Positions 12,694 through 36,333 of a stretch of 64,000 nt of DNA are shown one piece after another (position 1 is the stretch's first letter; the number at the start of each line of letters is the position of its first letter). Origin of the DNA: a bacterium (lineage in GTDB: Bacteria > Zhuqueibacterota > QNDG01 > DSAB01); assembly GCA_016931965.1 (NCBI GenBank), contig JAFGDT010000115.1, positions 62,001 through 126,000 of the forward strand, written 5' to 3'. A program made the position numbers and the translations under genes. A model generated the notes under the pieces. The model did no database searches. It worked only from the letters and a program-made list of their open reading frames with translations, and was not told the DNA's origin.

Positions 12694-13671
12694 ATGTCAT
12701 TCAAGCAGATTAAATGTCTCATTACAGGCGGACTTGGATTTATCGGCAGTAATTTGGCCATAAAACTGGTCGAATTGGGCGCTGATATCACAATTGTTGA
12801 TTCTATGATACCCGAATATGGAGGCAATTTATTCAATATTGAACCTGTGAAAAATGATGTGAAAATCAATTTTTCAGATATGAGAGATACGCATACACTT
12901 CCCTATCTGGTAAAGAACAGTGACATTATTTTTAATCTGGCTGGGCAGGTGAGTCATATGGACAGTATGAAAGATCCATTGACCGATCTCGATATTAATG
13001 TTCGGGCTCAGATATTCCTCCTTGAAGCATGTCGCAAATACAACCCCAACGCAACCATTATTTACACTTCGACAAGACAATTTTATGGCAGACCGCGATA
13101 TTTACCTGTCGATGAGAACCATCCTCTCTGCTCAGTGGATACAAACGGAATCAACAAACTGGCTGGCGAACAATACCATATCCTGTATCACCAGGTGTAT
13201 GGGCTTAAAACAATCGCATTGAGACTCACAAATACATATGGGCCAAGGCAACTCATTAAAAACCCAAGACAGGGATTCATTGGATGGTTTGTCAAGCATA
13301 TTGTGTGTGATGAGACCATTGAAATTTTTGGGGATGGTTTGCAGATTCGGGATTTAACATATGTGAACGATGTGGTTGATGCTTTGATAGCTTGCGTGGA
13401 TTTGCCAAAATGCTATGGTGAAATATACAATCTCGGCGGGGAGAAAACATCCCTCATCGATCTGGCAAAGCAATTGATATCCATTGCAAGCAAGGGTTCT
13501 TATAAACTGGTCCCCTTCCCAGAGGAGAGGAAGAAAATCGATATTGGCGACTTTTACAGTGATTATTCAAAATTTAAAAAAGCGACTGGTTGGATTCCAA
13601 AAGTCACATTGCAAGAGGGATTGAAACGTACCATCCAGTATTATGAGACATATAAGGATTATTATTTATGA
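12694..13671 (+). CDS. Extended SDR NAD-dependent nucleotide-sugar epimerase/dehydratase, variant catalytic motif
   Basis: The Rossmann glycine motif GGLGFIGS begins near residue 11, followed by an NLAGQVSH segment and '[11 protein letters not shown]', as in UDP-glucose epimerases and dTDP-glucose dehydratases. At the place of the catalytic YxxxK the protein reads NGINK, so the tyrosine is replaced by asparagine while the lysine stays. The length of 325 residues is complete. The ribosome site is a GAGGGAGAG run. Its stop overlaps the aminotransferase start by 4 nt. It likely makes an activated sugar for the surface polymer; the reaction is not predictable. Confidence 0.88.
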
Positions 13672-14777
13672 GCTCAATGATTGTACGCTTTTTGGAATTG
13701 AGAAGAAATTATCTACAAAACAGAGATATCATTAATGCGGCCGTTTCACGAGTACTCTCAAGCGGCTGGTACCTATTTGGTCAAGAACTCGAACAATTCG
13801 AAAAGCACTTCTCGGAATATTGCGGCGTGCAACATGGCATTGGTGTTGCCTCTGGTACTGAGGCCATACAAATCGCACTTGAAGCATGTGGTATCGGAGC
13901 TGGAGATGAAGTATTGACCACGAGCAACACATGCGTTCCGACCATAACAGGGATTGAACTGTCGGGTGCCAAATGTATCTTTGTCGATATCGATCCGGAT
14001 ACATACATCATCGACCCCCATCAGATTGAAAACCGGATGATGTCCAACACAAAAGCCATTGTCGTGGTTCATCTTTACGGACAGTGTGCTGACATGAAGG
14101 AAATTCAACACATCGCTCAAAAAAATAATTTAAAAATAATCGAAGATTGTGCACAGGCTCATGGGTCTTCCTTCAATGGAAAACATGCGGGAAGTTTTGG
14201 AGATGTAGGCGCGTTCAGTTTTTATCCAACAAAAAATTTGGGTGCACTGGGCGATGCGGGTATCGTGGTAACCGATGACCAAACGATTGCAGAACGTGCT
14301 CGCATGCTCAGAAATTATGGGCAAAAAGAAAAATACTATCATTCGATTAAAGGAATAAACAGCCGTATGGACGAAATTCAGGCCGCTATCCTCAATGCCA
14401 AGTTACCTCTGCTCGATCAATGGATTGAAAGAAGACACCAAATAGCCACCCGATATATCACAGCTCTACAAGATCTAGAAATTCATTTGCCACACACACC
14501 CAAAACCAATAAACACAGTTATCATCTCTTTGTGATTAGAATTAAGAATCGCGATCGTTTTCGAGAGCGCTTGACGCAACAGGGTGTCCAGACCGAAATT
14601 CACTATCCCGTACCGGTCCACCGACAACCCGCTTACAAGGAGTACCTGGATCAGGGTCCATTTTTACCCGTCACAGATGCACAGGCAAGCGAATTGGTCA
14701 GTTTGCCACTTTACCCTGAGTTGACTGATCCGGAAGTCGATCATGTGATCGAATCCATTAGAGCAATTCTCTCTTAA
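13668..14777 (+). CDS. DegT/DnrJ/EryC1/StrS-family sugar aminotransferase
   Basis: This PLP-dependent fold-type-I enzyme transfers an amino group to a nucleotide keto-sugar. Visible are the [13 protein letters not shown] cofactor loop, VHLYGQ, 'EDCAQAHGS', and the Schiff-base lysine in '[14 protein letters not shown]' (near residue 190). The C-terminal half has the HSYHLFVIR and '[13 protein letters not shown]' signatures. At 369 residues it is full length. It is translationally coupled to the epimerase through an ATGA overlap, so the two probably act in sequence to make an amino sugar for the glycan. Confidence 0.93.
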
Positions 14778-14823: not shown

Positions 14824-14852
14824 TTGACAAAACCAATTGGAAGTTGTATATT
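14824..14852 (+). promoter_or_regulatory. Strong sigma70-type promoter before the radical SAM gene
   Basis: TTGACA and TATATT are separated by exactly 17 nt, about 130 bp before the ATG at 14980. It gives the radical SAM gene and downstream glycan genes their own transcription start. Confidence 0.7.
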
Positions 14853-14979
14853 TTTCAGGATTTTTGGGATTGAGCAAAACGCTTCGTTTGCCTTTTAAAT
14901 AAATAAAGTTAAACATCCAGATTATTATTGTGATGTTCATCAATACGTTCACCTAAAACGATAAAGTTGAAATTGTATT

Positions 14980-16569
14980 ATGAAAGTGATGTTTGTTATA
15001 AATGACTTGGGTATCAACGAACCATTTGGCCCGATGATTCTATCAGCAATTGTTAAAGAAAAAGGACACGAAACCCTTCTTGGCGTTATACAAAAAGAAG
15101 ACGTGATGAAAAAAATAGCTTCATGGAAACCCGATATGCTGGCCTACAGTATGATGAGTGTTGACATGGAAGATATGAGACAGTTTAACCGATCTCTTCG
15201 GGAAAAAACAAAGATATTTACATTATTAGGTGGCCCCCATGCTACTCTGGACAGGACTTGCATCAATGATCCGGATATCGATGCGATCTGTGTCGGAGAA
15301 GGGGATGGAGCGATTATCGATGTTATAGAGTATCTTGAGAATGGAAGAGAAAATCACATCGAGGAAATTCCCAACATCATGACTTCTGAGTCTTCACCCA
15401 TGGATCTACGTCCCTTTCTTGAAGATCTCGATAATCTGCCTTTTATGGATCGTGCACTTGTTTATGATTATCCTTTTATGGGACGTTTTGGAATAAAAGG
15501 CGTGTGGGCAACGAGAGGATGTATGTTCCGATGTCCATACTGTTTCAACAATCGGTACAATCAGTTGTACAAAGGAAAGGGGAAAATTGTCAGACGGCGC
15601 AGCGTTGATTCCATGATCCGAGAGACCAAAGAGCTGATTGATCATTACCGCGTCGATTTTATTCGCATTCAGGATGATGCCTTCATTCTAAAGGTAGACG
15701 ATTGGATCAAGGAGTTTGCCGAAAGATGGCCATCTGAAATCGGAATTCCATTTTATTGTCTGCTGCGCTCTGAATGCGTAACGGATGAAATGGCCTATTA
15801 TTTGAAGAAAGCCGGCTGCTTTTCAATATGCATGTCTATCGAAACCGCCGATGATGCAATTCGAAATCGCATGTTGAGACGCCCTTCCAGTCAGGAAGAG
15901 TTGGAGGAAGCATTCCATATTTTAAAAAAACACAATATTCACATTTATGCCAATACCATGCTCGCTCTGCCGTTTACCTCTCTAGAGCATGATATTGCTT
16001 CTGTCGATTTTGCTATTAAGTCCAAACCGGATATGCCTAACTTCTCAATTTTTATGCCATATCCAGGCACAGATCTGGGCGATTATTGTCAACGAAAAGG
16101 CATTTACGATCCACAAAAAGATCCCATAAACTATGGTATGCGGAATATGAGTCCGCTTACCTGTTTTTCAAGAAAAGAAATAGAAGCACAGTACAATATC
16201 TGTGAATTGGCTATTGTAGCCGTCAAATTGCCTTTCCTGCGAAATGTCATTGTAAATCATTTGATTTATTGGAAACCCAATAAGATCTTTTTCTTTATTC
16301 ATTATCTTTTTGCAATACACACCTATGGTAAAAAGATATTTTATTTTAAACATACATTTAAAGAATATATTGATCTTTTTATCCGGACGTTCAGACATTA
16401 CATGTATGATTTTTTCGGAAAAGAAAGAAATTCTGAACAACTTCCGAAAAAGAAAGATTTATATCGACCAAAAAAAATGGGAGATATCTATACAAGAACT
16501 GAAGAATTAGAGAAATGTATGGAAGCCATGACCACCCATTATCAAGCTGACTTGGAAAGAGGTGAATGA
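14980..16569 (+). CDS. B12-binding-domain radical SAM protein of the glycan locus
   Basis: Residues about 1-140 form a cobalamin-binding-like Rossmann domain ('LLGGPHATLD', CVGEGDGA) without the DxHxxG histidine motif. The radical SAM 4Fe-4S cluster motif CMFRCPYC is near residue 182, with later core strands such as IRIQDDAF. The last 120 residues are rich in aromatic and basic residues with no known domain. Such proteins methylate or rearrange unactivated carbons; the substrate here is unknown. A lipid or sugar of the surface polymer is inferred from position only. The following GT2 gene starts two bases after its stop. Confidence 0.88.
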   Translation: MKVMFVINDLGINEPFGPMILSAIVKEKGHETLLGVIQKEDVMKKIASWKPDMLAYSMMSVDMEDMRQFNRSLREKTKIFTLLGGPHATLDRTCINDPDIDAICVGEGDGAIIDVIEYLENGRENHIEEIPNIMTSESSPMDLRPFLEDLDNLPFMDRALVYDYPFMGRFGIKGVWATRGCMFRCPYCFNNRYNQLYKGKGKIVRRRSVDSMIRETKELIDHYRVDFIRIQDDAFILKVDDWIKEFAERWPSEIGIPFYCLLRSECVTDEMAYYLKKAGCFSICMSIETADDAIRNRMLRRPSSQEELEEAFHILKKHNIHIYANTMLALPFTSLEHDIASVDFAIKSKPDMPNFSIFMPYPGTDLGDYCQRKGIYDPQKDPINYGMRNMSPLTCFSRKEIEAQYNICELAIVAVKLPFLRNVIVNHLIYWKPNKIFFFIHYLFAIHTYGKKIFYFKHTFKEYIDLFIRTFRHYMYDFFGKERNSEQLPKKKDLYRPKKMGDIYTRTEELEKCMEAMTTHYQADLERGE

Positions 16570-16570
16570 C

Positions 16571-17524
16571 TTGAGACAGAAAATCAATGTATCCATAGTG
16601 ATCCCGGTGTATAACGGGGCTGCGACTATTGGGAGGCTTGTCGATAACCTGATTGAAAAACTGAACCATTTTGAACTTGAAATTGTACTGGTCAACGATC
16701 ACTCCCGAGACAACTCCGAGGATGTTTGCATCGCTATACAAAATAAATATCCCTATAGGGTCAGTTTTTACTCATTGGCAAAGAATGTGGGTGAACACAA
16801 CGCTGTCTTGGCGGGATTGAACCATGCGACAGGAGATTATATTGTGATTATGGATGATGATTTCCAAAATCCGCCATCCGAAGTGATTAAATTGATCTCC
16901 ACAGCGATGCATAGTGACTATGACGTGATTTATACTTATTATGATAAGAAAAAACACACGAATTTTAGAAATCTGGGAAGCTGGTTCAATGACAAGATCG
17001 CCAACATCATGTTAAAAAAACCAAAGGATCTCTATCTTTCAAGTTTTAAATTGCTGAACAAATTCCTGGCAAGTGAAATCATCAAATATAAATCGCCTTT
17101 CCCCTATATCGATGGACTCATCCTGCAAATCACAGACAACATTGGCAAAATAAAAGTCGAACATCATAAGCGCGAAGCAGGCCGATCCAATTATACAATA
17201 AAAAAGTTGATCTCTTTATGGATTAACATGTTTACCAACTTTTCAATTATTCCCTTAAGGGTTTCCATCGTTTTGGGTTTTATCTTCTCAATCTATGGTT
17301 TAATTTATGGGATTATTATCATTATCGAAAGAATATTGAATCCCGACATGGCTCCGGGATTAGCCTCACTCATTGTAACCGTCTCTATTTTGGCAGGGGT
17401 ACAACTCATTGCCATTGGTATGATAGGAGAATATGTAGGCCGAATATTCATCTCCCAAAATAAAAAACCACAGTATACCATAAAAAGACAATATCCCAAG
17501 AAGATAAAACCAAGAAAAAAATAA
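16571..17524 (+). CDS. GT2 glycosyltransferase, polyprenyl-phosphate sugar synthase type
   Basis: The GT-A domain begins with VSIVIPVYNG and carries IVLVNDHSRD and the metal-binding IVIMDDDFQNPP (near residue 96). Two transmembrane segments lie near residues 230-290, ending in 'IAIGMIGEYVGRIF', the pattern of DPM1/GtrB/ArnC enzymes that charge polyprenyl phosphate with a sugar. The TTG at 16571 is chosen because AAAGAGGTGA lies 5 nt upstream; the ORF-track GTG at 16562 sits inside that site. It probably supplies a lipid-linked sugar to one of the polytopic transferases downstream. Confidence 0.9.
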   Translation: MRQKINVSIVIPVYNGAATIGRLVDNLIEKLNHFELEIVLVNDHSRDNSEDVCIAIQNKYPYRVSFYSLAKNVGEHNAVLAGLNHATGDYIVIMDDDFQNPPSEVIKLISTAMHSDYDVIYTYYDKKKHTNFRNLGSWFNDKIANIMLKKPKDLYLSSFKLLNKFLASEIIKYKSPFPYIDGLILQITDNIGKIKVEHHKREAGRSNYTIKKLISLWINMFTNFSIIPLRVSIVLGFIFSIYGLIYGIIIIIERILNPDMAPGLASLIVTVSILAGVQLIAIGMIGEYVGRIFISQNKKPQYTIKRQYPKKIKPRKK

Positions 17525-17526
17525 TT

Positions 17527-18267
17527 ATGTACGTTGATGAATATAAAACTATGTTTGAGTATGAAGACCATTATTGGTGGTATAGAGCACTTCATGAATT
17601 GATTGAATTTTTCGTTCAAAAAGAACAAAAAAGGGGAAAGAGATTTTTAAATATTCTTGATGCGGGTTGTGGAACGGGCAAATTGCTGACCATACTTAAA
17701 AAATACGGGAACACCCATGGAATCGATTATTCCGAAGATGCAATTATGTACTGTAAGAAAAGGGGATTAAAAAATATAAAAATTGGAGATTTGTGCCATT
17801 ACCAATCCAATCCGTCTTTATATGACATCATTACCCACATCGATATTTTGTGTTGTGTGAAAAAAGAAAATGAAATAAGAATCATCAAAGAATTTCACAA
17901 TGCTCTTAAACCGGACGGTATTCTCATACTCAATTTACCAGCATTTCACTGTCTCAGAAGAAGGCATGACATCGCCGTTGGCAGTTATCGAAGATATCGA
18001 AGAAATAGATTTATTCCAAAATTAATTGATATTGGATTTCATATCGAAATCCAGAGTTACCGGTTACCTGTTCTTTTTATTCCCATATTGCTAAAAAAAT
18101 ACTTTGAAACAATAAACAAGAGGAAAGAAATCAGATCCGATTTTTCTCCTCTTCCATTCTTTATTAATTGGTCTTTGCTTCAAATGTTCAGAATCGAAAA
18201 TAAAATAATAGACAAAATCAATATCCCGTTTGGAACCTCATTGTTTATTGTAGCACGTAAAAGGTAG
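17527..18267 (+). CDS. Class I SAM-dependent methyltransferase
   Basis: The SAM-binding motif ILDAGCGTGKLL is near residue 42, then a HGIDYS acidic loop and an 'ALKPDGILILNLPA' strand. The protein starts YVDEYKTMFEYEDHYWWYR, an aromatic N-terminus common in methyltransferases of polysaccharide or lipid loci. At 246 residues it appears complete. It begins 3 nt after the GT2 stop, so it belongs to the same transcript. The methyl acceptor is unknown. Confidence 0.88.
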   Translation: MYVDEYKTMFEYEDHYWWYRALHELIEFFVQKEQKRGKRFLNILDAGCGTGKLLTILKKYGNTHGIDYSEDAIMYCKKRGLKNIKIGDLCHYQSNPSLYDIITHIDILCCVKKENEIRIIKEFHNALKPDGILILNLPAFHCLRRRHDIAVGSYRRYRRNRFIPKLIDIGFHIEIQSYRLPVLFIPILLKKYFETINKRKEIRSDFSPLPFFINWSLLQMFRIENKIIDKINIPFGTSLFIVARKR

Positions 18268-18277
18268 TTTACAGATC

Positions 18278-19876
18278 TTGAAAATCAACAAGATTGACAA
18301 ATTCACAACTTCCTTATTTTTCTTAATATTCCTAACCACAGGATTCTTCATTTATGATGATTATGGCATATCCTGTGATGAAGATATACAGCGTCAAATA
18401 GGAACCACAAATTATAATTACATCACCCACAAGGACAATGAATTAATTACCGATATTGATCGCTATCATGGACCCTTTTTTGAAATTTTCTTAATAGGTG
18501 CAGAAATTATATGGAACCATCTCAAATCTAATAACGGTTACCTGGATATAAGTGATGTATATTTGCTAAGACATTTGATAACATTTCTCACATTTTTTGT
18601 GGGTGTTTTTTTCTTTTATTTATTATGCAAACATCATTTTGGTAATTGGAAGGTTGCATTATTAGGAAGTCTGTTACTTATTTTAAGCCCCCGGATTTTC
18701 TCACATTCATTTTACAATTCGAAAGACCTCCCCTTTTTATCACTATTTATTATCAGTATTTATACGCTGATCAAATTCCTGGATAAAAAAACCATATTTA
18801 GAGCATTTTTACATGGTCTAACATGTGCGGTATTGATTGACATACGTATAATGGGCATTTTGGTTCCTTGCTTAACGTTTCTTTTTATCGGGTTAGACAT
18901 TTTCTGTGACCCAAAATCCATAATACAAAAATGTAAAAAAATGATACCCATTACTGCTTTTTACGGACTCATCTTGATTCTTTTTACGATACTATTCTGG
19001 CCGATTCTATGGAAAAACCCTGTTTACCATTTCATTGAAGCATTTAAAGATTTGTATCATCATGTGTGGTATCTGGATGTATTGTATTTGGGAGAGTACC
19101 TATCGGCTGCAGACGTGCCTTGGCACTACATTCCTGTATGGCTTTTGATCACAACACCTATTTTGTATATTCTATTTTTTATTATCGGTTTGTTTTTCAT
19201 GATGCGTTCATTTTTTATTGAATTCCGAACCATTCTAAAATACAATCAGATTCAAAGAAATCTTATTTTTTTATTATGGTTTTTTCTTCCCCTGTTTACA
19301 GTGATAGCGTTTCATTCTGTTGTGTATGATTCATGGCGTCACATGTTTTTTATCTATCCTGCTTTTTTGCTTATATCGGTAAATGGTATCACGAATTGTC
19401 ATACATGGATTCGACTGAAGCTAAAGGGATATTCAAGGAGAGTAGGAACAATCCTTTTTATTGCTTTTTTCCTTGGAGGACTGAGTCCTATTTTATATTT
19501 TATGGTGAAACATCATCCCTATCAGAATATCTACTTTAACCGTTTCGCCGGTAAAAACATGGCATCCAATAAACAGAAATTTGAGTTAGATTACTGGGGT
19601 TTATCATTCAAAAGTGCACTTGAATACATCGCATTGCACGATAACGATGAAATCATTAATCTTCATTTTGAAGATTACTGCGGGAAATCCACATTCTTTA
19701 TGATATTGCCCCGCAATCAAAGAAACAGACTCCGATATGTTAACCATATTGAGGATGCAAAATATTTTCTCGGCAATTATCGGTGGCACCGAGAGGAATA
19801 TCCTTTTAAAGAGAAGTTTTATTCGGTTAACATTGACGGGGCAGATATCATGGTTGTTTATCAATTGAAAGGATAA
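18278..19876 (+). CDS. Polytopic membrane glycosyltransferase-like protein (PMT/ArnT type)
   Basis: There are about ten hydrophobic helices. The first extracytoplasmic loop has a conserved acidic pair (GISCDEDIQRQ), as in GT-C enzymes that take a sugar from polyprenyl phosphate. The middle contains 'SPRIFSHSFYNSKDLPFL', a motif seen in related uncharacterised PMT-2-like proteins. The C-terminal 120 residues are soluble. The start is a TTG with a weak upstream AAAGGTAG. It follows the methyltransferase closely. Acceptor and sugar are unknown; the lipid donor is likely made by one of the neighbouring GT2 enzymes. Confidence 0.75.
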   Translation: MKINKIDKFTTSLFFLIFLTTGFFIYDDYGISCDEDIQRQIGTTNYNYITHKDNELITDIDRYHGPFFEIFLIGAEIIWNHLKSNNGYLDISDVYLLRHLITFLTFFVGVFFFYLLCKHHFGNWKVALLGSLLLILSPRIFSHSFYNSKDLPFLSLFIISIYTLIKFLDKKTIFRAFLHGLTCAVLIDIRIMGILVPCLTFLFIGLDIFCDPKSIIQKCKKMIPITAFYGLILILFTILFWPILWKNPVYHFIEAFKDLYHHVWYLDVLYLGEYLSAADVPWHYIPVWLLITTPILYILFFIIGLFFMMRSFFIEFRTILKYNQIQRNLIFLLWFFLPLFTVIAFHSVVYDSWRHMFFIYPAFLLISVNGITNCHTWIRLKLKGYSRRVGTILFIAFFLGGLSPILYFMVKHHPYQNIYFNRFAGKNMASNKQKFELDYWGLSFKSALEYIALHDNDEIINLHFEDYCGKSTFFMILPRNQRNRLRYVNHIEDAKYFLGNYRWHREEYPFKEKFYSVNIDGADIMVVYQLKG

Positions 19877-20057
19877 AATAGCTTCGAGTGAGAAACAAAA
19901 TGAGATAAAATGGAAATTGGAATAGATGGAGTATCCTATTAGAATAAATGGGTAAACGAGGATCCTCGTGCATGATTATCATGACACCATCTTGAAGTCA
20001 TTACAAACCAATATTTGGTATTTGTACCCACATAGGAAATGTAAGGATTTTTGAACA

Positions 20058-20990
20058 ATGAAGCATTGTGAAATTTCTATTGTCATACCTGTTCTCAATG
20101 AAGAGGAAACCCTTCGGGAATTGTATAAAAGATTAATTTCTATTCTTGAAAAGGAAATGAAAATCTCCTACGAAATTATTTTTATAGACGATGGAGGGCA
20201 TGACACTTCCTGGAATATTATTGAATCCCTGCACACAGAAAATAGTCGCGTCAAAGGCATTCAATTTTCGAGACGATTCGGACATCAATATGCATTAAAA
20301 GCAGGATTGGATTATGCAAAAGGTAAAGTCTTGGTATCCATGGATGCTGATCTGCAGCATCCTCCCGAAGTCATCCATGATCTCTATAAAAAATGGAAAG
20401 AAGGGTATCAAATCGTGCAGGCCCTTCGAAAGGACACAAAAGGCGAAAGCAAACTGAAAAAAATGACCTCAACATGTTTTTATCATCTCTTGAATTTCTT
20501 ATCAGACATTCAGATTGAACCGGGATCATCTGATTTTCGACTGCTTGATCGTCAAGTGGTGGATGAATTAAAAAGGTTAAACGAAAGACAATTATTCTAC
20601 AGGGGTCTCATCCAGTGGGTGGGTTTTAAGCACTATTCTCTTTTATATATAGCAGACAAACGATTTTCAGGCTCGACCAAATATTCCTTCTCAAAAATGA
20701 TGAGTTTTGCTTTGGATGGGATCATGTCTTTTAGCACAAAACCCTTACGAATCGCCATTGTATTGGGTTGCATTGTATCCCTTTTTGCCTTTTTCAACAT
20801 CATCTATGCACTGTTCGCCCATTTTGTTTATCAAAGGACTGTACCGGGTTGGACCTCTATTCTCATCTCAGTACTTTTACTCGGAGGTATTCAACTGATC
20901 ACAATAGGCATTATTGGAGAGTATGTTGGTAAACTCTATATTGAAAATAAGAAAAGGCAGAATTATATCATTCAGGAGACGATAGAATAA
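20058..20990 (+). CDS. Second GT2 polyprenyl-phosphate sugar synthase
   Basis: The protein has EISIVIPVLNEEETL at the N-terminus, FIDDGGHD, 'VSMDADLQHPPE' (DxD-type metal site, near residue 95) and two C-terminal helices ending in 'TIGIIGEYVGKLY'. It is a paralogue of the 16571 enzyme in the same locus. Its usual length of 310 residues indicates an intact gene. A 180-bp gap separates it from the preceding gene and may hold a separate promoter. It is followed 15 nt later by a polytopic protein. Confidence 0.92.
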   Translation: MKHCEISIVIPVLNEEETLRELYKRLISILEKEMKISYEIIFIDDGGHDTSWNIIESLHTENSRVKGIQFSRRFGHQYALKAGLDYAKGKVLVSMDADLQHPPEVIHDLYKKWKEGYQIVQALRKDTKGESKLKKMTSTCFYHLLNFLSDIQIEPGSSDFRLLDRQVVDELKRLNERQLFYRGLIQWVGFKHYSLLYIADKRFSGSTKYSFSKMMSFALDGIMSFSTKPLRIAIVLGCIVSLFAFFNIIYALFAHFVYQRTVPGWTSILISVLLLGGIQLITIGIIGEYVGKLYIENKKRQNYIIQETIE

Positions 20991-21005
20991 TCTTTTGACC
21001 TCAAT

Positions 21006-22814
21006 ATGGAAAACAACAAAGATATGAAAAATTTCAAGGAAGGAAATGAACTCGTATTATTCGGGAAAACCATTACACGAAAACGCTTAATTCTCATTTG
21101 TTGGATTGTGGCCATTATTCTGGGTGCTTTTCAGGCATGGGATACACGACATTACGTGAATCCGGATGGTCTATCTTATCTCGATATGGGAGATGCATAT
21201 TTACGTGGGGATTGGGATATGGCCATCAACGCCTACTGGAGTCCGTTTTATTCGTGGTTAACTGGACTTACCTTATCTATTATCAAACCTTCCCCATATT
21301 GGGAAGCTTCTGTAATCCATTTATTAAACTTTTTGATCTTTTTAGGTTCGATGGCCTGTTTTCATTTTTTCCTCAACCAATTGATCAAGTACAATCAATT
21401 TCAAATCGAGAGGAATAAAAAGACAAAGTACCAATCTTTCCCAGAATGGGCATGGATTATTTTGGGATATTCACTTTTTATTTGGACTTCTTTGGATCTG
21501 ATTACATTAACTAAAGTGACGCCAGACATATGTTTGACAGGTTTCGTATACCTGTCCTGTGGCCTTTTAATAAGAATGCGTATGGGTTTCTCAAGTGTTT
21601 TTATCTGCATCTTATTTGGTATTGTGTTGGGATTTGGGTACCTCGTTAAAGTACCATCTTTGCCCATTGCTTTCTTCTTTCTGGGGTCGAGCATATTTAT
21701 GATTGGCCATTTTCGTAATAATTGGACACGTGTCTTGATATCAAGTCTGTCTTTTGCCATTGTGTGTGGATCATTTGCAATCATGCTCTCCAAAGAACAA
21801 GGTCGTTTCACTTTTGGAGATAGCGGAAAATTAAACTACGCATGGTACGTCAATGGTGTATCCATGTGGGTGCACTGGCAGGGAGATGAGCTAAAAAGTG
21901 GCACACCAATGCATCCTACAAGAAAGATCTCTGATAAACCCGTTATTTATGAATTTGAAATACCCATACAATGCACCTATCCACCGTGGTATGATCCGGC
22001 ATATTGGCATGAAGGACTTACTATATATTTCAACATCAAACAACAAATAGCCGTATTACAATACATAATTGAGAATTTCTATGTAAACCTATTCTTCCAA
22101 CTTCAGGCACCTCTTGTCGTTGGCTTTTTAATATTTTTTCTTACAGGATGGAACCGACCCGACAATCACAAGATTCTTTTAAAACAATGGCCTCTACTCA
22201 TTCCAGCAATTATCGCTATGAGTATGTTTGCCTTGGTTCATGTGGAAACAAGGTTTCTCGGTGCCTATATTGTACTTTTATGGCTTGGATTATTTTCTGG
22301 TATTCATCTGTTTCAATCATCCAAGTCAATCAAGTGGGCAAAAAATATCATCCTGGCTGTGGTGATTACTTTAATGACCATCACCGTGATCCCATTTGGC
22401 ATGAGAACCTATCATCTGTTTGCCGATCTAATAGGAGGCAAAAGTGTATGGGTTCACAAACACTTTCAGGTTGCACAAGGAATCAAGCAATTGAATATTC
22501 ACGACGGTGATAAAGTTGGTTTTATCGGACATGCAATCGACGCTTATTGGGCTCGATTAGCCTCCATTCAAATTATCGCAGAGATTCCCTATAACAATAT
22601 TGACTCCTTTTGGGCAGCAGATTCTGCTGTAAAGAAAAAGGCCTTTCAAATATTTTCGGATATTCATGCAAAGGCCGTTTTAACTTCAGAGGTGCCCCAA
22701 TACGCTTTGTTATCTGAATGGCAAAGACTCGGGGACACCGGATATTTCTTCTATGATCTCAGGAAAAAGTCTATTGGAGAAGAAAAAAATAGTGAAACGG
22801 TTATTATTGAATAA
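21006..22814 (+). CDS. Polytopic membrane glycosyltransferase-like protein (GT-C fold candidate)
   Basis: About ten transmembrane helices follow a cytoplasmic N-terminus. The first periplasmic loop has 'YVNPDGLSYLDMGDAYLRGD' and AYWSPFYSWL, like dolichyl-phosphate-mannose mannosyltransferase relatives that carry a D/E in loop one. The C-terminal 130 residues form a soluble domain ('GDKVGFIGHAIDAYWARL'). It is next to a GT2 donor synthase, so it may use that lipid-linked sugar. Family membership is inferred from topology and the first loop. Confidence 0.7.
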   Translation: MENNKDMKNFKEGNELVLFGKTITRKRLILICWIVAIILGAFQAWDTRHYVNPDGLSYLDMGDAYLRGDWDMAINAYWSPFYSWLTGLTLSIIKPSPYWEASVIHLLNFLIFLGSMACFHFFLNQLIKYNQFQIERNKKTKYQSFPEWAWIILGYSLFIWTSLDLITLTKVTPDICLTGFVYLSCGLLIRMRMGFSSVFICILFGIVLGFGYLVKVPSLPIAFFFLGSSIFMIGHFRNNWTRVLISSLSFAIVCGSFAIMLSKEQGRFTFGDSGKLNYAWYVNGVSMWVHWQGDELKSGTPMHPTRKISDKPVIYEFEIPIQCTYPPWYDPAYWHEGLTIYFNIKQQIAVLQYIIENFYVNLFFQLQAPLVVGFLIFFLTGWNRPDNHKILLKQWPLLIPAIIAMSMFALVHVETRFLGAYIVLLWLGLFSGIHLFQSSKSIKWAKNIILAVVITLMTITVIPFGMRTYHLFADLIGGKSVWVHKHFQVAQGIKQLNIHDGDKVGFIGHAIDAYWARLASIQIIAEIPYNNIDSFWAADSAVKKKAFQIFSDIHAKAVLTSEVPQYALLSEWQRLGDTGYFFYDLRKKSIGEEKNSETVIIE

Positions 22815-24210
22815 TTCATTCCTCATAACAAAAATCTTACTGGTTATTGCCATCCTTGTTTTTCTCTTGCTCGCTTTTTTCTCTCAACCTGCAGCTGATG
22901 ATTATGGACAAATTCAGAGAATACAATCGACCAGTTTCTGGAATGCACAGGCTGTTCTATATAATCATATAAATGGTCGATTCTTTTACATGTTCGCGTT
23001 CAGTATTTATACTATGATTTTTGGTCTCTCAAATTACTGGATCTTTACCTGGCTGATCTACGGCTCTCTTTTCCTCTCCATCTGCTTACTCATTTCTACA
23101 TCAGGATCTGGACTTTTACACAGGCGAACATTGATCTGGAGCAGCCTGACGTTTCTTCTGATCTATGTCGGCAGAGTAATCCTACTAAGTGAAGCATTTT
23201 ATTGGCTTGCAGGTGCAATGACATATCAACTGGGCAATATTTTATTTATTCTTTTCATTGCAATGCTCTATCTCTTGTTTCGTGCATCTTCACCCTACAA
23301 GCGTCTGATATACACAACAATCGGGGGCTTACTTGGATCATTTACTGTTGCTACCAACGAAATATTTTTGGTTCCTGTATTTGCAGGTCTTATTTTGTGT
23401 ATGCTCTCTCTCGTGATCAATAAGAATCCAAGTTTTTTCTATGTACTCTCCATTTTCCTCTTATCTTGTATCAGTGCCTATTTCGTCATTACGGCTCCCG
23501 GAACCCATATCAGAAGTTTAAATTTTCCCAATCGCCACCAAATCGGATTCTCATTGAGTTCTTCTTTTATTTATGCATTTCGATTCTTTAGACAATGGGC
23601 TTTTGATCCTATTGTATTATCATCCACTTTACTTTTTTTACCTTCGGCATCACAATTTACCAATCAGATTAAGATCTCAAAAAAAGGCAAAAAAATACTC
23701 CCGTTTCTGCCTGTTGCCTGGTTATTTATTTTTACCTTTTCGTTTTTCCCTGCATTTTGGGCTTTGGGGAATGCCCCTCCAGATCGCACACTCAATTCAA
23801 TCTTTCTATTCTTTTTGCTGGGCTGGTATCCCTCGGTGTGTATCCTGACAATACTTTTACTGCCCCGGCAAAAACCGGATACAATTTTACCTCAACATAT
23901 TCGCAATGCTGCAATGATTATTTTCTTGCTCTCTCTTTTCTGTTTCCCCAATTTGTCGACTGCCATCAAAGACCTTCTCTTTCACGCCCATCCCTACCAC
24001 CAGGAAGTAAAACAACGGATCGAATCCACTCAAAAAAGTGTATCAGAAAATCGGGGATATGTCATCATACACCCACTCAAAAACCGTCCTGTTTCATTAT
24101 TCTCCCCTAATTTTGAATTTAGAGGCAATCCTGATCACTGGGTCGATTATGATTGGGAGTTATACTGGGGAGTCAAAGTCATTTATCAGGATGAATCGGA
24201 TGTTCAATAA
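22792..24210 (+). CDS. Polytopic membrane protein, DUF6056-like
   Basis: There are about eleven hydrophobic helices. The first loop reads QPAADDYGQIQR and ends in NHINGRFFYM, resembling DUF6056 proteins, which are GT-C-like and uncharacterised. The GTG at 22792 with a preceding GGAG gives a 23-nt overlap with the upstream gene; the ORF-track ATG at 22753 would give a 62-nt overlap. It is the last plus-strand gene of the glycan locus. No terminator was seen in the 106-bp gap before the convergent deacetylase. Confidence 0.65.
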   Translation: MKRLLLNNSFLITKILLVIAILVFLLLAFFSQPAADDYGQIQRIQSTSFWNAQAVLYNHINGRFFYMFAFSIYTMIFGLSNYWIFTWLIYGSLFLSICLLISTSGSGLLHRRTLIWSSLTFLLIYVGRVILLSEAFYWLAGAMTYQLGNILFILFIAMLYLLFRASSPYKRLIYTTIGGLLGSFTVATNEIFLVPVFAGLILCMLSLVINKNPSFFYVLSIFLLSCISAYFVITAPGTHIRSLNFPNRHQIGFSLSSSFIYAFRFFRQWAFDPIVLSSTLLFLPSASQFTNQIKISKKGKKILPFLPVAWLFIFTFSFFPAFWALGNAPPDRTLNSIFLFFLLGWYPSVCILTILLLPRQKPDTILPQHIRNAAMIIFLLSLFCFPNLSTAIKDLLFHAHPYHQEVKQRIESTQKSVSENRGYVIIHPLKNRPVSLFSPNFEFRGNPDHWVDYDWELYWGVKVIYQDESDVQ

Positions 24211-24316: not shown

Positions 24317-25195
24317 TTATGTAATACTGCTTATTTGAGTAAGATCTGACTTGTGATCTAGTAGATCTTGGTACGAAACGAGTTCAAATCCCTTTTGCCA
24401 AATAAGATAGGCAAGAGAAGGATCTGTGAGGGCATTTAATTCATCCGACCAGCGATATCCCCAGTGATGATAATCCGACTGTTCATTCTCCAGCCCTGGG
24501 TGACACATCAATTCGCATACTCCATCTTGAGGTAAATTGTCAAGCAGGGCTTCTAAATTTCTATGATTAATTTTGCCACTGTATAAAAAGCCGGAAAAGT
24601 GATCCGCACCCAAGAGAGATAGCCTTTTTACCTTCAAGCTAAGAAAATTCAAAATCATGAGCTGTATGACTCGAGATATTGAAACGCTTGACATGATTGT
24701 TTTAAAACGGATGGTTTCGCAAGGAAGACGAACTGCCAAGATATCATACCTCTTCATAAGTTTAAGCGTTACCGAAAGGATGCCGGGCAACATATGAAGA
24801 TGTTGATGACTATCAATATGGCTTGGTTTGATGCCAGAATCCATTACTTTTTGAATCTGCATTTCCAGTTCGTCTTCAACTTCCTTTAAACAAATCTTTC
24901 TTCTCAAATATTTCTTGACAAATATCCTTTGATCACGGTGGAGTTTCCCGTCTTCATCGACAAGACTCTTAATTCGGTCCTTTTCAAGAATGGGTAATTC
25001 TTCAATAAGGTTTAAATGGATACCGATATCAAGTGTCGGACTCAACCGATAGAGTTCGACTGCATGTTCAAAAGAAGATCCATTCGCCATAATCGATGCC
25101 GAAGTGACAATACCCTTCGTGTGTGCCTGAATGATACCTTCGTTAACTTGCTTTGTCAATCCAAAGTCATCGGCATGAATGATCAATTTCCCCAT
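24317..25195 (-). CDS. ChbG/HpnK (YdjC)-family carbohydrate deacetylase
   Basis: This TIM-barrel metal-dependent deacetylase removes acetyl groups from N-acetylated sugars or glycolipids. The metal and catalytic motifs are HADDFGLT at residue 7, GIHLNL, 'DSHQHLHMLPG' near residue 130, and a late CHPG. HpnK acts on hopanoid glycolipids and ChbG on chito-oligosaccharides; neither substrate can be assigned. Its place beside the glycan locus suggests it tailors a surface or lipid-linked sugar. It starts 15 nt after the FemAB-like gene and probably shares its transcript. Confidence 0.88.
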   Translation of the reverse strand: MGKLIIHADDFGLTKQVNEGIIQAHTKGIVTSASIMANGSSFEHAVELYRLSPTLDIGIHLNLIEELPILEKDRIKSLVDEDGKLHRDQRIFVKKYLRRKICLKEVEDELEMQIQKVMDSGIKPSHIDSHQHLHMLPGILSVTLKLMKRYDILAVRLPCETIRFKTIMSSVSISRVIQLMILNFLSLKVKRLSLLGADHFSGFLYSGKINHRNLEALLDNLPQDGVCELMCHPGLENEQSDYHHWGYRWSDELNALTDPSLAYLIWQKGFELVSYQDLLDHKSDLTQISSIT

Positions 25196-25210: not shown

Positions 25211-26263
25211 CTATGGTATATTACGAATAATGCGGTGACCTATGCGTTTTGTAATGAATACGGGCATCTTTTTCCATACGGAAACAGGGAAACTAAAAAC
25301 CGGATTTTCAGGATCAAAATTGGGTATCTTATGAACGCTATTCAGATAATATTGATAGTATAATTGAACCGGTTTTGCACCATATTGCATCTTAAATCGA
25401 TATGTTCCTGAATTTTGTTTGCTTCTGCCAAAATCGAAAAAACGGTATCCTTTTTCGTCCGCTCTTTGTATGGCTTCCCAGTAGAGAAGATTATTGGGTC
25501 TTAAATGAAAATAAGACTGGAGTGAAGCAATCCAGGGCATGAGAACCGTATTTTTAAAATAGACCAGAAACATGCCTCCGATAAATGTGCGTTTGAATCG
25601 AACCATGAGGAGTGTCGATTCTGGAAAGTATCGGATAATATTTGAAAAGAATCTATAATCATGAGCAGGTGTTCCCAAACGATGCATATTTCGCGCATTG
25701 ATATCCACAAAATATTTGAGATAATCATGTCCCTCTACAACGGCAAGTCCGGATCGGCATGCTTTCTGTATGTTCCGCCGTGTACTAGGATGCAAAGATG
25801 AATGCCAGATCTTCTTTATCCCCAGTGAAAGATTGAGGACCAAAGTGCAGTAGACAGATTTATTTTGTAAAGAATACACTATCGGTTTTTCATTCCGGAT
25901 CTCAATATAACGAACCTTTTCAATATGTGCAATTTGTATCGCCTGGTCAATAAGAGCAGCTGCTACATCTTCATCATCACTGACAAGCCCGCCAAATGTC
26001 AGATAGGGACTGGTAACCAGACATTTCCCGAATATAAAACTTTTTATTAAGAATAGGGGTAAAATTCCGACAACGGCGTTGTCTTTGAATCCCATTAAAT
26101 AAAATGGCTTATGCCCGTATGTTTCTGCAACGACATCTTTCCAACCCAAATGATGGCCAAAAACAGAATCAGGTGATTTGAGAATATAGCGATTCCACTC
26201 ATCTTGAAATGAGGGTTGATACAATTTAATTTGAACAGAATCCTGTTGTTGAATCTTATCCAT
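25211..26263 (-). CDS. FemAB-like acyl/aminoacyl transferase (exopolysaccharide-locus type)
   Basis: Two GNAT-like folds are evident. The C-terminal half has 'NLLYWEAIQRADEKGYRFF', DFGRSKQNSGTYRFK and QYGAKPVQLYYQYYL, hallmarks of the FemAB-related proteins found in exopolysaccharide and exosortase loci. FemAB enzymes add amino acids to peptidoglycan from tRNA, but this subgroup has no established substrate. Its position between a deacetylase and a GNAT protein points to glycan or cell-wall modification. No exosortase is visible in the window. Confidence 0.8.
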   Translation of the reverse strand: MDKIQQQDSVQIKLYQPSFQDEWNRYILKSPDSVFGHHLGWKDVVAETYGHKPFYLMGFKDNAVVGILPLFLIKSFIFGKCLVTSPYLTFGGLVSDDEDVAAALIDQAIQIAHIEKVRYIEIRNEKPIVYSLQNKSVYCTLVLNLSLGIKKIWHSSLHPSTRRNIQKACRSGLAVVEGHDYLKYFVDINARNMHRLGTPAHDYRFFSNIIRYFPESTLLMVRFKRTFIGGMFLVYFKNTVLMPWIASLQSYFHLRPNNLLYWEAIQRADEKGYRFFDFGRSKQNSGTYRFKMQYGAKPVQLYYQYYLNSVHKIPNFDPENPVFSFPVSVWKKMPVFITKRIGHRIIRNIP

Positions 26264-26321: not shown

Positions 26322-26942
26322 TTATCGACTATGATTCTGACAGGTTGATAAATCGAACGAATACCGAAGACGTTTGATGCCAAATTCCGTATAGACATAT
26401 TCCAATTGCATACCCAATTTTTCATTGAATTTTTGGGTTGATTCATTTTCAATTTCCACACTTGCTTCATATCTTGAAATCCCCTTCTGGATAAGATAAT
26501 CATGAAAATGGGTCATCAGTTTTTTCCCGATCCCGAGTTTTTGGTAGGGTGGATTGACCGCCAAAAAAACAAGTTCTGATTCACAACCCGTTTGATGTCG
26601 ATAAGTTCTGTAAAAAATAACTTTCAATAATAATCCAATTTTTTGGGGTTTTTTGAAAATCAGCCGAAACATTTGATACACAATGGGAAAGGCTCGCCTG
26701 AGAGCCACATCTTTATAAAGTGTCGATATGGCAGTTGTCCCGAATACAAATCCGGCTATTTTATTTTCTCTGAAATCAACAAAACCGAAATTATGTTCTG
26801 ATTTTAAAGCCGTTTCGTAAAAAAGATGGATCATTGGATAACCCAGTTCTTGAAGCAATCCAGGAATCAAATCGGCATGAAGGACCGAGACTTCTTGACT
26901 GTGATTCGGTTTTAATACTGTAATGGAGTTTCTGATATCCAT
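26322..26942 (-). CDS. GNAT-family N-acetyltransferase
   Basis: The acetyl-CoA motif 'LAVNPPYQKLGIGKKLM' (Q/R-x-x-G-x-G/A type) is near the middle and ends in an AxxEIENESTQKF helix typical of GNATs. The start is moved inward to MDIRNSITV, preceded by an AGAG; the ORF track begins 16 residues earlier without a ribosome site. It is the first gene of the GNAT, FemAB-like, deacetylase set, with small gaps. The acetyl acceptor is unknown; an amino sugar is a reasonable guess given the aminotransferase in the locus. Confidence 0.8.
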   Translation of the reverse strand: MDIRNSITVLKPNHSQEVSVLHADLIPGLLQELGYPMIHLFYETALKSEHNFGFVDFRENKIAGFVFGTTAISTLYKDVALRRAFPIVYQMFRLIFKKPQKIGLLLKVIFYRTYRHQTGCESELVFLAVNPPYQKLGIGKKLMTHFHDYLIQKGISRYEASVEIENESTQKFNEKLGMQLEYVYTEFGIKRLRYSFDLSTCQNHSR

Positions 26943-27063
26943 TTCTCTATTCGGCATAAAAACGATAACAGGGGACCTATTTTTGCACATTCTGTTATAC
27001 CATAAAACTTCATTTGGTTGCTTTATTCAGAAAGATAAAAAGTGCAACGTTATGATTGACTAT

Positions 27064-33414: not shown

Positions 33415-34806
33415 TTATTGCCAGGGTATCTCATTATATTTTTTTATTTGATTTGTTAGCGCTTCAGATAAAACATGATAAATGTCTTTTTCACGATCTG
33501 CCAAGTTATCCCTTTCCATCGGATCCGTTTCCAGGTTGTACAGCTCCATCGGCCCGCCGGGATAAGGTTCCAGCAGTTTCCACTCCCCACGCCGGATCGC
33601 ATAAATGGTTCCCCCACCTTCGTATCGAATGCCGTGATAACTGCCTTCTTTTCTTCCGAAGAAAATGTCCCGCATAAGATGAGCCTGTCTTTTACCGAGC
33701 AGTGTATCTAAAAACCCAAGTCCATCGATCTCATGCGTGATCGGGATACCGGCGATTTCGGTGATTGTGGGGAATAGATCCATCGTCAATAAAACATGGT
33801 CACTGACCGATCCCGGCCTGATTTTGCCCGGCCATTTCACAGCCATCGGCACTCTGAGCCCTCCTTCATACAAAAGCTGTTTCCCGGACCGATAAGGTCC
33901 GTTGTGTGCACAATCGGCCAACAATCCGCCGTTATCACTTGTAAAAATAACAACTGTATTTCGATCCAGACCTGTCTCAGCCAGTTTCTTGAGAACAATA
34001 CCGATATGATAGTCAAGATGCTCGATAAACGCGCAAAGGTTTGCCCTCGTGTTATTGCTCAGCCATTCCCATTCTCTATATTGTTGAACCCATTCTTCGG
34101 GAGGTTGAACAGGAGCATGCGGGGCGTTGTAGGCTATATAGAGGAAAAAGGGATTTGCCATTTCCTGACGTCCTTCCAGATAATCGCATGCCCATTCCGT
34201 AAACAGTTCAGTAGCATGACCCATTGGATGGATCTCATCTATATTCTCTCTCATATAGTTGATGCCGTGTCGCATGTGTGTGTAATAATCGTCCATCATA
34301 TCACCGAGGAATCCCTTGAAAAAATGAAAACCTCTTTCATTGGGGAGATCGGGAGATTCCAATCCGAGATGCCACTTACCGATGAGGGCTGAATGATAAT
34401 CGGCCTGTTTCAATATTTCAGGCAACAGAAACGCATCATCGATAAGATTCCCCCATGAGTTGTTGGGATGGGTTCGAATCACACCGGGAACACCCACCAA
34501 TTCAGGATATCGTCCGGTCAGTATCGACGCCCGTGTCGGAGAACAGACGGGACAATTTGCATAAAAATTGATAAATTTCATTCCTTCATTAACCAGGCTG
34601 TCAATATGAGGCGTACGTAAATCTCCTCCCCCGAAACTGGAGAGGTCTCCGTATCCCAGATCATCAACCAATATGAGGAGGATATTGGGTGGTGGATGAT
34701 TTTCTGTTCCAGTACACCGGTACAACATCAGACCCAGTGTACTGGAAGCCATCATTTTTAAAAATGCTCTTCTGGATTCTCTTGAAGGATTTGTGGGTAC
34801 ATTCAT
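33415..34806 (-). CDS. Sulfatase (type I, Cys-type) with twin-arginine signal
   Basis: The alkaline-phosphatase-fold sulfatase has the formylglycine motif CSPTRASILTG near residue 85, metal residues in 'LVDDLGYGDLSSFG', GKWHLG and TSDNGG. The cysteine is the residue converted to formylglycine. The start is moved to 34806 (MNVPTNPSRESRRAFLK), which gives a Tat-like SRRAFLK signal; the ORF-track extension of 43 residues lacks this logic. It acts outside the cytoplasm on a sulfated sugar. It follows the second sulfatase by 16 nt. Confidence 0.92.
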   Translation of the reverse strand: MNVPTNPSRESRRAFLKMMASSTLGLMLYRCTGTENHPPPNILLILVDDLGYGDLSSFGGGDLRTPHIDSLVNEGMKFINFYANCPVCSPTRASILTGRYPELVGVPGVIRTHPNNSWGNLIDDAFLLPEILKQADYHSALIGKWHLGLESPDLPNERGFHFFKGFLGDMMDDYYTHMRHGINYMRENIDEIHPMGHATELFTEWACDYLEGRQEMANPFFLYIAYNAPHAPVQPPEEWVQQYREWEWLSNNTRANLCAFIEHLDYHIGIVLKKLAETGLDRNTVVIFTSDNGGLLADCAHNGPYRSGKQLLYEGGLRVPMAVKWPGKIRPGSVSDHVLLTMDLFPTITEIAGIPITHEIDGLGFLDTLLGKRQAHLMRDIFFGRKEGSYHGIRYEGGGTIYAIRRGEWKLLEPYPGGPMELYNLETDPMERDNLADREKDIYHVLSEALTNQIKKYNEIPWQ

Positions 34807-34822
34807 AATCGTATTACCTTTT

Positions 34823-36313
34823 TTACGATGATTCAAATGAAGGATGCTTCGGTGCTCCTCCATAATAGGGATATTGGTCGAACCGGTCGCCTTCGCCCAA
34901 AACACGCGGATCTCGGCTCTCCGTAAGAAGATCAATCAAATGCTCAGCAAGCTGATTCTTGATTTCTGCAAAAGCCGGATCATCAGCGATGTTATTTAAC
35001 TGATCAGGATCTTTCCGGCAATCATAGAGCTCTTCTGCCGGTCTCATGCCGAAAGCCAACTCCCAGAGATGGCTGTGATATGCATCCCGATTCCTATTTT
35101 CGGTTATATATGTCTTGGTCGGGCTGTTATCGCAATCGGCCAGCCAGGCTCCCGGAATGGCAGCCTTCTGATAGTTGGGCGTTCCGGACGGCCATCGCTC
35201 CGGTTTGAAATTTCGGATGTAGAGAAAATCGTGCGTACGGATCGACCGGCAAGGATAACCGCCCATATGGCCTTCCTGAGCTGGCACATGCCGTTCTTTT
35301 CCGCAGAGAACAAATCCCCGTTTATCTGATGTGACGAAGCCTTCCTCATCACTGATGAGTAAATCAAAGAGACTTTGCCCCGTCATCACCGACGGGATGT
35401 TTACACCGGCTATCTGAAGAAAGGTTGGTGCCAGATCGGAGAGGCTCACAAAATCCTCGATAACCCTGCCTCTCTTTTTTATTCTCGATCCCCAGCGGAT
35501 GGCCAGGGGAGCACGCACACCTGAATCGTAGAGATTGCTCTTGCACCTGGGAAAAGGCATTCCGTTATCACCGGTCACCACAATAATCGTATTTTCGAGT
35601 TCACCGATCTCTTCCAGTTTTTCAATAGCATTACCCAGATCATGATCAAAGCCCTGTACCTCAAAATAATAATCTGCCACATCTCTTCGGACAATCCCGT
35701 TATCAGGAAAGTACCCAGAGAGTCTGATCTGATCAAGATCTATACCACTATCAGCACCTGAATTGAGGACATAAGGACGATGAGGATCGCTGGATCCGAG
35801 CCAGAAGCAAAAAGGTGCATCTTTCGGTCTTGCAGAAAGGAACTCTGAGAAGCCTTCTGAATAGGGTTTGCCTGCCGGATAATCTTCCCATCCCGTTAAC
35901 TCGCCTCCCGGCCCCCAGCTCTTCCGCCAGGATCCCACATGATAACCTGCTTGTTGCAACAGCAGTGGATAGACAGGCATCGTCGGATCAAGCGTGCTCC
36001 AGAGACTGGCACCGGGTCCCAGCCGCCAATGGTACTGGCCTGTTAAGATTGAATTTCGCGAAGGTGTGCAGGAAGGAGCCGTAACGTATGCATGGTTGAA
36101 TAACACACCTTCATTGGCTACCCGATCAAAATGGGGGGTTTTAACCACAGGATCACCATAGACGCCTGCATGGGGCCATCCCCAGTCGTCGGCTATGGCA
36201 AAGAGGATATTGGGCCGTTTCGAAAGAGATTGGCACCCGTTGAGTGAAAGCGCACCCGTATACAATCCTGCCGGAATGACCAGACCCTGTTTAAGGAATT
36301 CGCGCCTTTTCAT
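34823..36313 (-). CDS. Second sulfatase (type I, Cys-type) with twin-arginine signal
   Basis: The formylglycine motif is CTPSRNSILTGQYH (near residue 80), preceded by 'ILFAIADDWGWPHAG' with its metal aspartates and followed by VTGDNGMPFPR. The N-terminus KRREFLKQG is Tat-like. The start at MKRREFLK (36313) is preferred because GGAG lies 9 nt upstream; the ORF-track ATG is five residues earlier. It resembles heparan-N-sulfatase/sulfamidase-like proteins in overall layout ('WRKSWGPGGE' and a C-terminal 'ELYDCRKDPDQLNN'), but the substrate is not certain. It lies 20 nt after the isomerase-like gene, in one operon. Confidence 0.92.
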   Translation of the reverse strand: MKRREFLKQGLVIPAGLYTGALSLNGCQSLSKRPNILFAIADDWGWPHAGVYGDPVVKTPHFDRVANEGVLFNHAYVTAPSCTPSRNSILTGQYHWRLGPGASLWSTLDPTMPVYPLLLQQAGYHVGSWRKSWGPGGELTGWEDYPAGKPYSEGFSEFLSARPKDAPFCFWLGSSDPHRPYVLNSGADSGIDLDQIRLSGYFPDNGIVRRDVADYYFEVQGFDHDLGNAIEKLEEIGELENTIIVVTGDNGMPFPRCKSNLYDSGVRAPLAIRWGSRIKKRGRVIEDFVSLSDLAPTFLQIAGVNIPSVMTGQSLFDLLISDEEGFVTSDKRGFVLCGKERHVPAQEGHMGGYPCRSIRTHDFLYIRNFKPERWPSGTPNYQKAAIPGAWLADCDNSPTKTYITENRNRDAYHSHLWELAFGMRPAEELYDCRKDPDQLNNIADDPAFAEIKNQLAEHLIDLLTESRDPRVLGEGDRFDQYPYYGGAPKHPSFESS

Positions 36314-36333
36314 TTTAAAGCTCTCCATTATAA

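Follow-up and report, generated by a model that had tools for sequence, protein, structure and literature searches.

In a KSB1-group bacterium we describe a nine-gene locus whose probable role is to charge membrane lipids with two sugars and deliver these to something outside the cell. It lies in a window of 64,000 nucleotides (contig C5, 62001-126000; positions given below are those of the window) from a genome assembly of 3.54 Mb that comprises 140 contigs and is 94% complete. The reading that we favour, and consider fairly likely, is that the locus serves a surface glycoconjugate through two branches running in parallel, each of which charges a lipid and transfers its sugar. In this pathway, the SDR enzyme and the DegT aminotransferase would make or modify a nucleotide sugar, possibly aided by the methyltransferase and radical SAM protein; GT2a and GT2b are predicted from close homology to load one sugar each from a nucleotide donor onto polyprenyl phosphate at the inner membrane face; a flippase, presumably encoded elsewhere, would turn the lipid-linked sugars to the outer face; and P1, P2 and probably P3 would, as GT-C transferases, hand each sugar to an extracytoplasmic acceptor, using an aspartate of the first loop as the putative catalytic base (suggested by the predicted fold for P2 and by profiles for P1, and presumed for P3). 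The most likely acceptor would be a surface glycan, such as a polysaccharide, whose Wzx/Wzy genes lie elsewhere in the genome.

Such a locus leaves the accepted mechanism of extracytoplasmic glycosylation unchanged. It would extend the set of enzymes that decorate bacterial surfaces by a GT-C family (P2) that is still uncharacterised, here in a candidate phylum that has been little studied. The P2 family lends itself to direct tests, since its predicted structure is confident and its candidate catalytic Asp invariant.

Organization of the locus

The ORF listing shows nine intact reading frames between 12694 and 24210, all on the forward strand and each with homologues, in the order SDR, DegT, B12-radical SAM, GT2a, methyltransferase, P1, GT2b, P2 and P3 (Table 1; families named by Pfam and NCBIfam scans). 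Chance is ruled out by the top Pfam E values of the non-polytopic genes (1e-12 to 1e-124) together with the full-length homologues of P2. Inside groups the genes overlap or are 2-15 bases apart (P3, counted from its listed start, shares 62 bases with the end of P2), and gaps of 202 and 181 bases lie between groups; this spacing suggests three units, SDR-DegT, radical SAM-GT2a-methyltransferase-P1 and GT2b-P2-P3. Each lipid-sugar synthase is thus followed by a polytopic partner of its own (GT2a-methyltransferase-P1 and GT2b-P2-P3). The G+C content is 33-39% across 16-24 kb, compared with about 41% upstream. An RsbU-like phosphatase gene, used as the synteny anchor for an empty site, has another context in related genomes.

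The earlier note had described an aminotransferase and a radical SAM protein in a locus beginning at 14824. The B12-binding radical SAM protein is indeed part of it, and the aminotransferase, of the DegT type, exists as well but ends just upstream of that start; since the SDR gene overlaps DegT by 4 bases, we place the true start of the locus at 12694.

Table 1. Genes of the locus, with positions in the window and the evidence for their assignment.
Gene	Product	Position	Strand	Evidence
SDR	SDR-type NAD-dependent nucleotide-sugar epimerase/dehydratase	12694-13671	+	Pfam Epimerase E 2.5e-41
DegT	DegT/DnrJ/EryC1/StrS sugar aminotransferase	13668-14777	+	Pfam PF01041 E 1e-123
Radical SAM	B12-binding radical SAM protein	14980-16569	+	PF02310 and PF04055; CxxxCxxC at residue 181
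GT2a	ArnC-like polyprenyl-phosphate sugar synthase	16562-17524	+	PRK10714 (ArnC) 164.8 bits; two C-terminal TM segments
Methyltransferase	Class I SAM-dependent methyltransferase	17527-18267	+	PF08241 E 1.6e-12; DAGCGTG motif
P1	Probable GT-C (PMT_2/GT39-like) polytopic transferase	18278-19876	+	PMT_2 E 3e-4; D34 in first outer loop
GT2b	GtrB/Sll0501/PgfS-like polyprenyl-phosphate glycosyltransferase	20058-20990	+	PgfS model 296.7 bits; two C-terminal TM segments
P2	Predicted GT-C glycosyltransferase of unnamed family	21006-22814	+	AlphaFold2 and Foldseek; putative catalytic D54
P3	DUF6056 polytopic protein, possible GT-C	22753-24210	+	PF19528 57.7 bits, cut-off 27

Lipid-sugar synthases and presumed sugar-modifying enzymes

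Two DPM/ArnC-type GT2 enzymes had been recognized from the letters of the sequence, and our searches agree: GT2a and GT2b both combine a GT-A domain, an acidic DxD-type motif (DDD at 98, DAD at 96) and a C-terminal TM pair with a solved match of the DPM/GtrB/ArnC type. For GT2a the best solved match is ArnC (9hwj, E 2.9e-40), over the full length including the TM pair. GT2b aligns end to end with the GtrB-like Sll0501 of Synechocystis (PDB 5EKP, E 6.6e-85), a polyisoprenyl-phosphate glycosyltransferase, and has ArnC as its next best match. Neither enzyme reaches the curated ArnC and PgfS cut-offs, so the scores make the GT2 class clear but not the sugar.

The upstream enzymes are likewise assigned by class. 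No NCBIfam model shown for the SDR enzyme reaches its curated cut-off, and the models nearest to DegT are PseC (270 bits, cut-off 423.5) and ArnB. From the neighbourhood, we infer that the carried sugars would be modified ones supplied by the aminotransferase and the radical SAM enzyme. The SDR enzyme has NGINK (residue 151) where the catalytic YxxxK of its superfamily is expected, apparently with Asn in place of the customary active-site Tyr.

The polytopic proteins and their relatives

Fold prediction of the polytopic proteins, named in the earlier note as the check on a GT-C identity, was run on P2 and gave a confident AlphaFold2 model (pLDDT 90.6, pTM 0.91; 44-sequence alignment). In a Foldseek search against the PDB, each of the best 25 matches (E from 1e-5) was a GT-C enzyme, a complex containing one, or PIGU, a subunit with the GT-C fold; OST, ArnT, PglB, AftB, ALG9, ALG3, PMT (Pmt1-Pmt2) and Emb enzymes stood at the top together with PIGU, and the first unrelated match followed at rank 26 with a probability of 0.07. 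With values of 0.27-0.47 by query length, the TM-scores are moderate, as commonly seen among divergent GT-C proteins. From this model, P2 is confidently predicted to have a GT-C fold. Searching the PDB with P2 by sequence profile returned chance matches only, so the kinship to solved enzymes is visible by fold only.

Helices 25-46, 53-67, 80-93 and 97-136 of the model can be read as TM1, JM1, JM2 and TM2. D54 stands at the start of JM1, where an acidic residue is expected in GT-C enzymes; it is invariant, together with D174 and K215, in the 44 P2-family sequences, and was already invariant in the first alignment, which consisted of sequences from the phylum. The catalytic Asp of PimE, ALG6, ArnT and PglB occupies the same place in JM1 (PMC12041525), as does the DD/DE motif of TMTC, ArnT and PMT (PMC7801869). 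Scans of the 44 sequences found no member with a dedicated Pfam or NCBIfam family, and eight of them showed a weak PMT_2 match; that P2 belongs to an uncharacterised, unnamed GT-C family is well supported.

For P1, the PMT_2 score (21.5 bits) is under the cut-off of 26.1, and the AlphaFold2 model, built on a five-row alignment, has a pLDDT of 41. Comparison of the P1 and P2 families by hhalign gave 92% (85% with another alignment, with D34 paired with D54), and D34, an acidic residue of the first outer loop as in GT-C enzymes, is invariant across P1 and seven GT-C-like relatives (8-sequence alignment). On these profiles P1 is a probable GT-C transferase. P3 is a possible one, its topology (N-terminus in, DDY straight after TM1, a first loop of 55 residues) fitting GT-C. 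A 30% relative in one of the genomes searched (G080) is likewise DUF6056. Pfam may place DUF6056 in the GT-C clan, a point that plays no part in our assignment. A comparison of P3 with the P1 and P2 families by hhalign, using a P3 profile of two sequences, gave no match. No relatives appeared in scans of viral contigs with P1 and P3 or in a plasmid tblastn with P3.

The proposal of three PMT-like polytopic proteins is thus well supported for P2 by its fold, moderately for P1 (PMT_2 and profiles) and indirectly for P3 through DUF6056. The joint presence of lipid-sugar synthases and GT-C transferases holds up, given the homology of GT2a and GT2b to ArnC and Sll0501 and the predicted fold of P2. 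The weak PMT_2 matches in P1 and in eight of the 44 P2-family members, together with Pmt1-Pmt2 among the fold matches of P2, could also point to a protein acceptor, i.e., a bacterial PMT-like O-glycosylation locus. We regard this as improbable: PMT_2 includes many non-protein transferases, the domain scans report no MIR domain in P1 or P2, and the locus is linked to no target protein or sorting signal.

A search of 85,000 species genomes with P2 recovered 80 loci with full-length homologues (E down to 2e-180). The family spans roughly ten phyla, with relatives in Acidobacteria, Nitrospirae, Cyanobacteria, Planctomycetes, Gemmatimonadetes, Chloroflexi, Omnitrophota, a Bradyrhizobium, WOR-3 and others; one locus of Candidatus Obscuribacter (L102:10001-18970) carries four P2-family genes inside 10 kb. 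Of 79 P2 relatives, 25 (32%) stand directly beside a GT2 gene, compared with 38 (6.5%) of 582 other genes with a length of 250 aa or more; this count covers the fetched loci and is inflated by treating related genomes as independent. Four distant relatives (L010, L012, L013, L015) have the GT2 gene immediately upstream, and a radical SAM relative (31%) follows the P2 relative in a Nitrospiraceae locus (L053). The gene combination recurs, because BMS3Abin15 (locus L048) has a similar set within 12 kb: P2 (49%), GT2b (50%), GT2a (40%), DegT, GNAT, a methyltransferase and a PMT_2 protein that scores above the cut-off.

The sequence of P2 is closer to proteins of Nitrospirae, Pyrinomonadaceae and BMS3Abin15 (40-49% identity) than to those of its own phylum (about 20%), which suggests that P2 was gained horizontally. 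The other genomes searched of the same phylum contain no close relatives of P1 or P2, so conservation near home cannot serve to check the module. It is conceivable, though doubtful, that the locus is a loose collection of genes, in which GT2b-P2-P3 were acquired horizontally beside unrelated nucleotide-sugar and radical SAM genes and the sugar may be plain glucose or galactose. The gaps of 202 and 181 bases that split the locus into three groups, the closer kinship of P2 to other phyla and the absence of DegT and radical SAM neighbours for most P2 relatives fit this account, whereas the single strand shared by all nine genes and the similar set in BMS3Abin15 speak for the two-branch locus. A more specific proposal, that P2 founds a GT-C family apart from those of Pfam and NCBIfam, paired with a GT2 synthase without GtrA and fed a modified (amino or methylated) sugar from DegT, the radical SAM protein and the methyltransferase, appears to us rather unlikely.

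Flippase, acceptor and known systems

The earlier note had advised a search for an associated flippase or polymerase outside the window. The locus itself encodes no flippase, and the flippase search, which covered the GtrA type, found no match to GtrA (PF04138) in the own genome (94% complete). Elsewhere in the genome there are seven Wzx-like and two Wzy_C genes; two of the former share the contig with the locus, about 38 and 60 kb further upstream. Comparable systems are known with flippases of other types; this role was assigned to a MATE-family protein in Citrobacter (PMC11127046), and in S. mutans the flippase was not identified (PMC11754754).

By analogy with known three-component systems, the locus may be seen as a two-branch version of lipid-carried extracytoplasmic glycosylation, its closest design being SccN/SccM with SccP/SccQ of S. 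mutans. That SCC side-chain system also has two GT-A polyprenyl-phosphate-sugar synthases and two GT-C transferases in one locus (PMC11754754), whereas the KSB1-group bacterium has three polytopic proteins and additional SDR, aminotransferase, radical SAM and methyltransferase genes. In the GtrA-GtrB-Gtr(type) system of O-antigen glucosylation, too, a variable GT-C transferase comes after a GtrB-type GT2 (PMC11127046), but here no GtrA was found in the genome and there are two synthases, not one.

The Arn pathway (ArnB-ArnC-ArnT) shares with the locus an aminotransferase, an ArnC-like GT2 and a GT-C transferase. An Arn-like route to a membrane lipid, in which DegT would make an amino sugar, GT2a would load it onto undecaprenyl phosphate and P1 or P2 would pass it to lipid A or another glycolipid, is nevertheless unlikely in our judgement. 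It is consistent with ArnC as the best solved match of GT2a, with the 245 bits of DegT on the ArnB model, with ArnT among the best fold matches of P2 and with a convergent YdjC-type deacetylase gene at 24317-25195. However, DegT (245 vs 631 bits for ArnB) and GT2a (165 vs 529 bits for ArnC) are far under the curated cut-offs, OST, PglB and AftB match P2 about as well as ArnT does, and the locus has neither an ArnA-type gene nor a member of the ArnD family, from which we take YdjC to differ.

Genes for the YdjC-type deacetylase (minus strand) and a GNAT acetyltransferase (26322-26990, minus strand) flank a FemAB gene (25211-26263, minus strand) and are convergent with the glycan locus; the deacetylase and the acetyltransferase may act on the same glycan. 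The FemAB protein scores 295.6 bits against a cut-off of 260.35 for TIGR03019, the XrtA/PEP-CTERM-associated FemAB family. An XrtA/PEP-CTERM exosortase system, considered on account of this neighbour, was rejected, with no PF09721 match in the own genome. Downstream of the locus lie two adjacent sulfatase genes (33415-36328, minus strand), and a second glycan region elsewhere in the genome, on contig C125 (about 4-39 kb), holds several GT2, Wzx-like and Wzy_C genes in about 35 kb.
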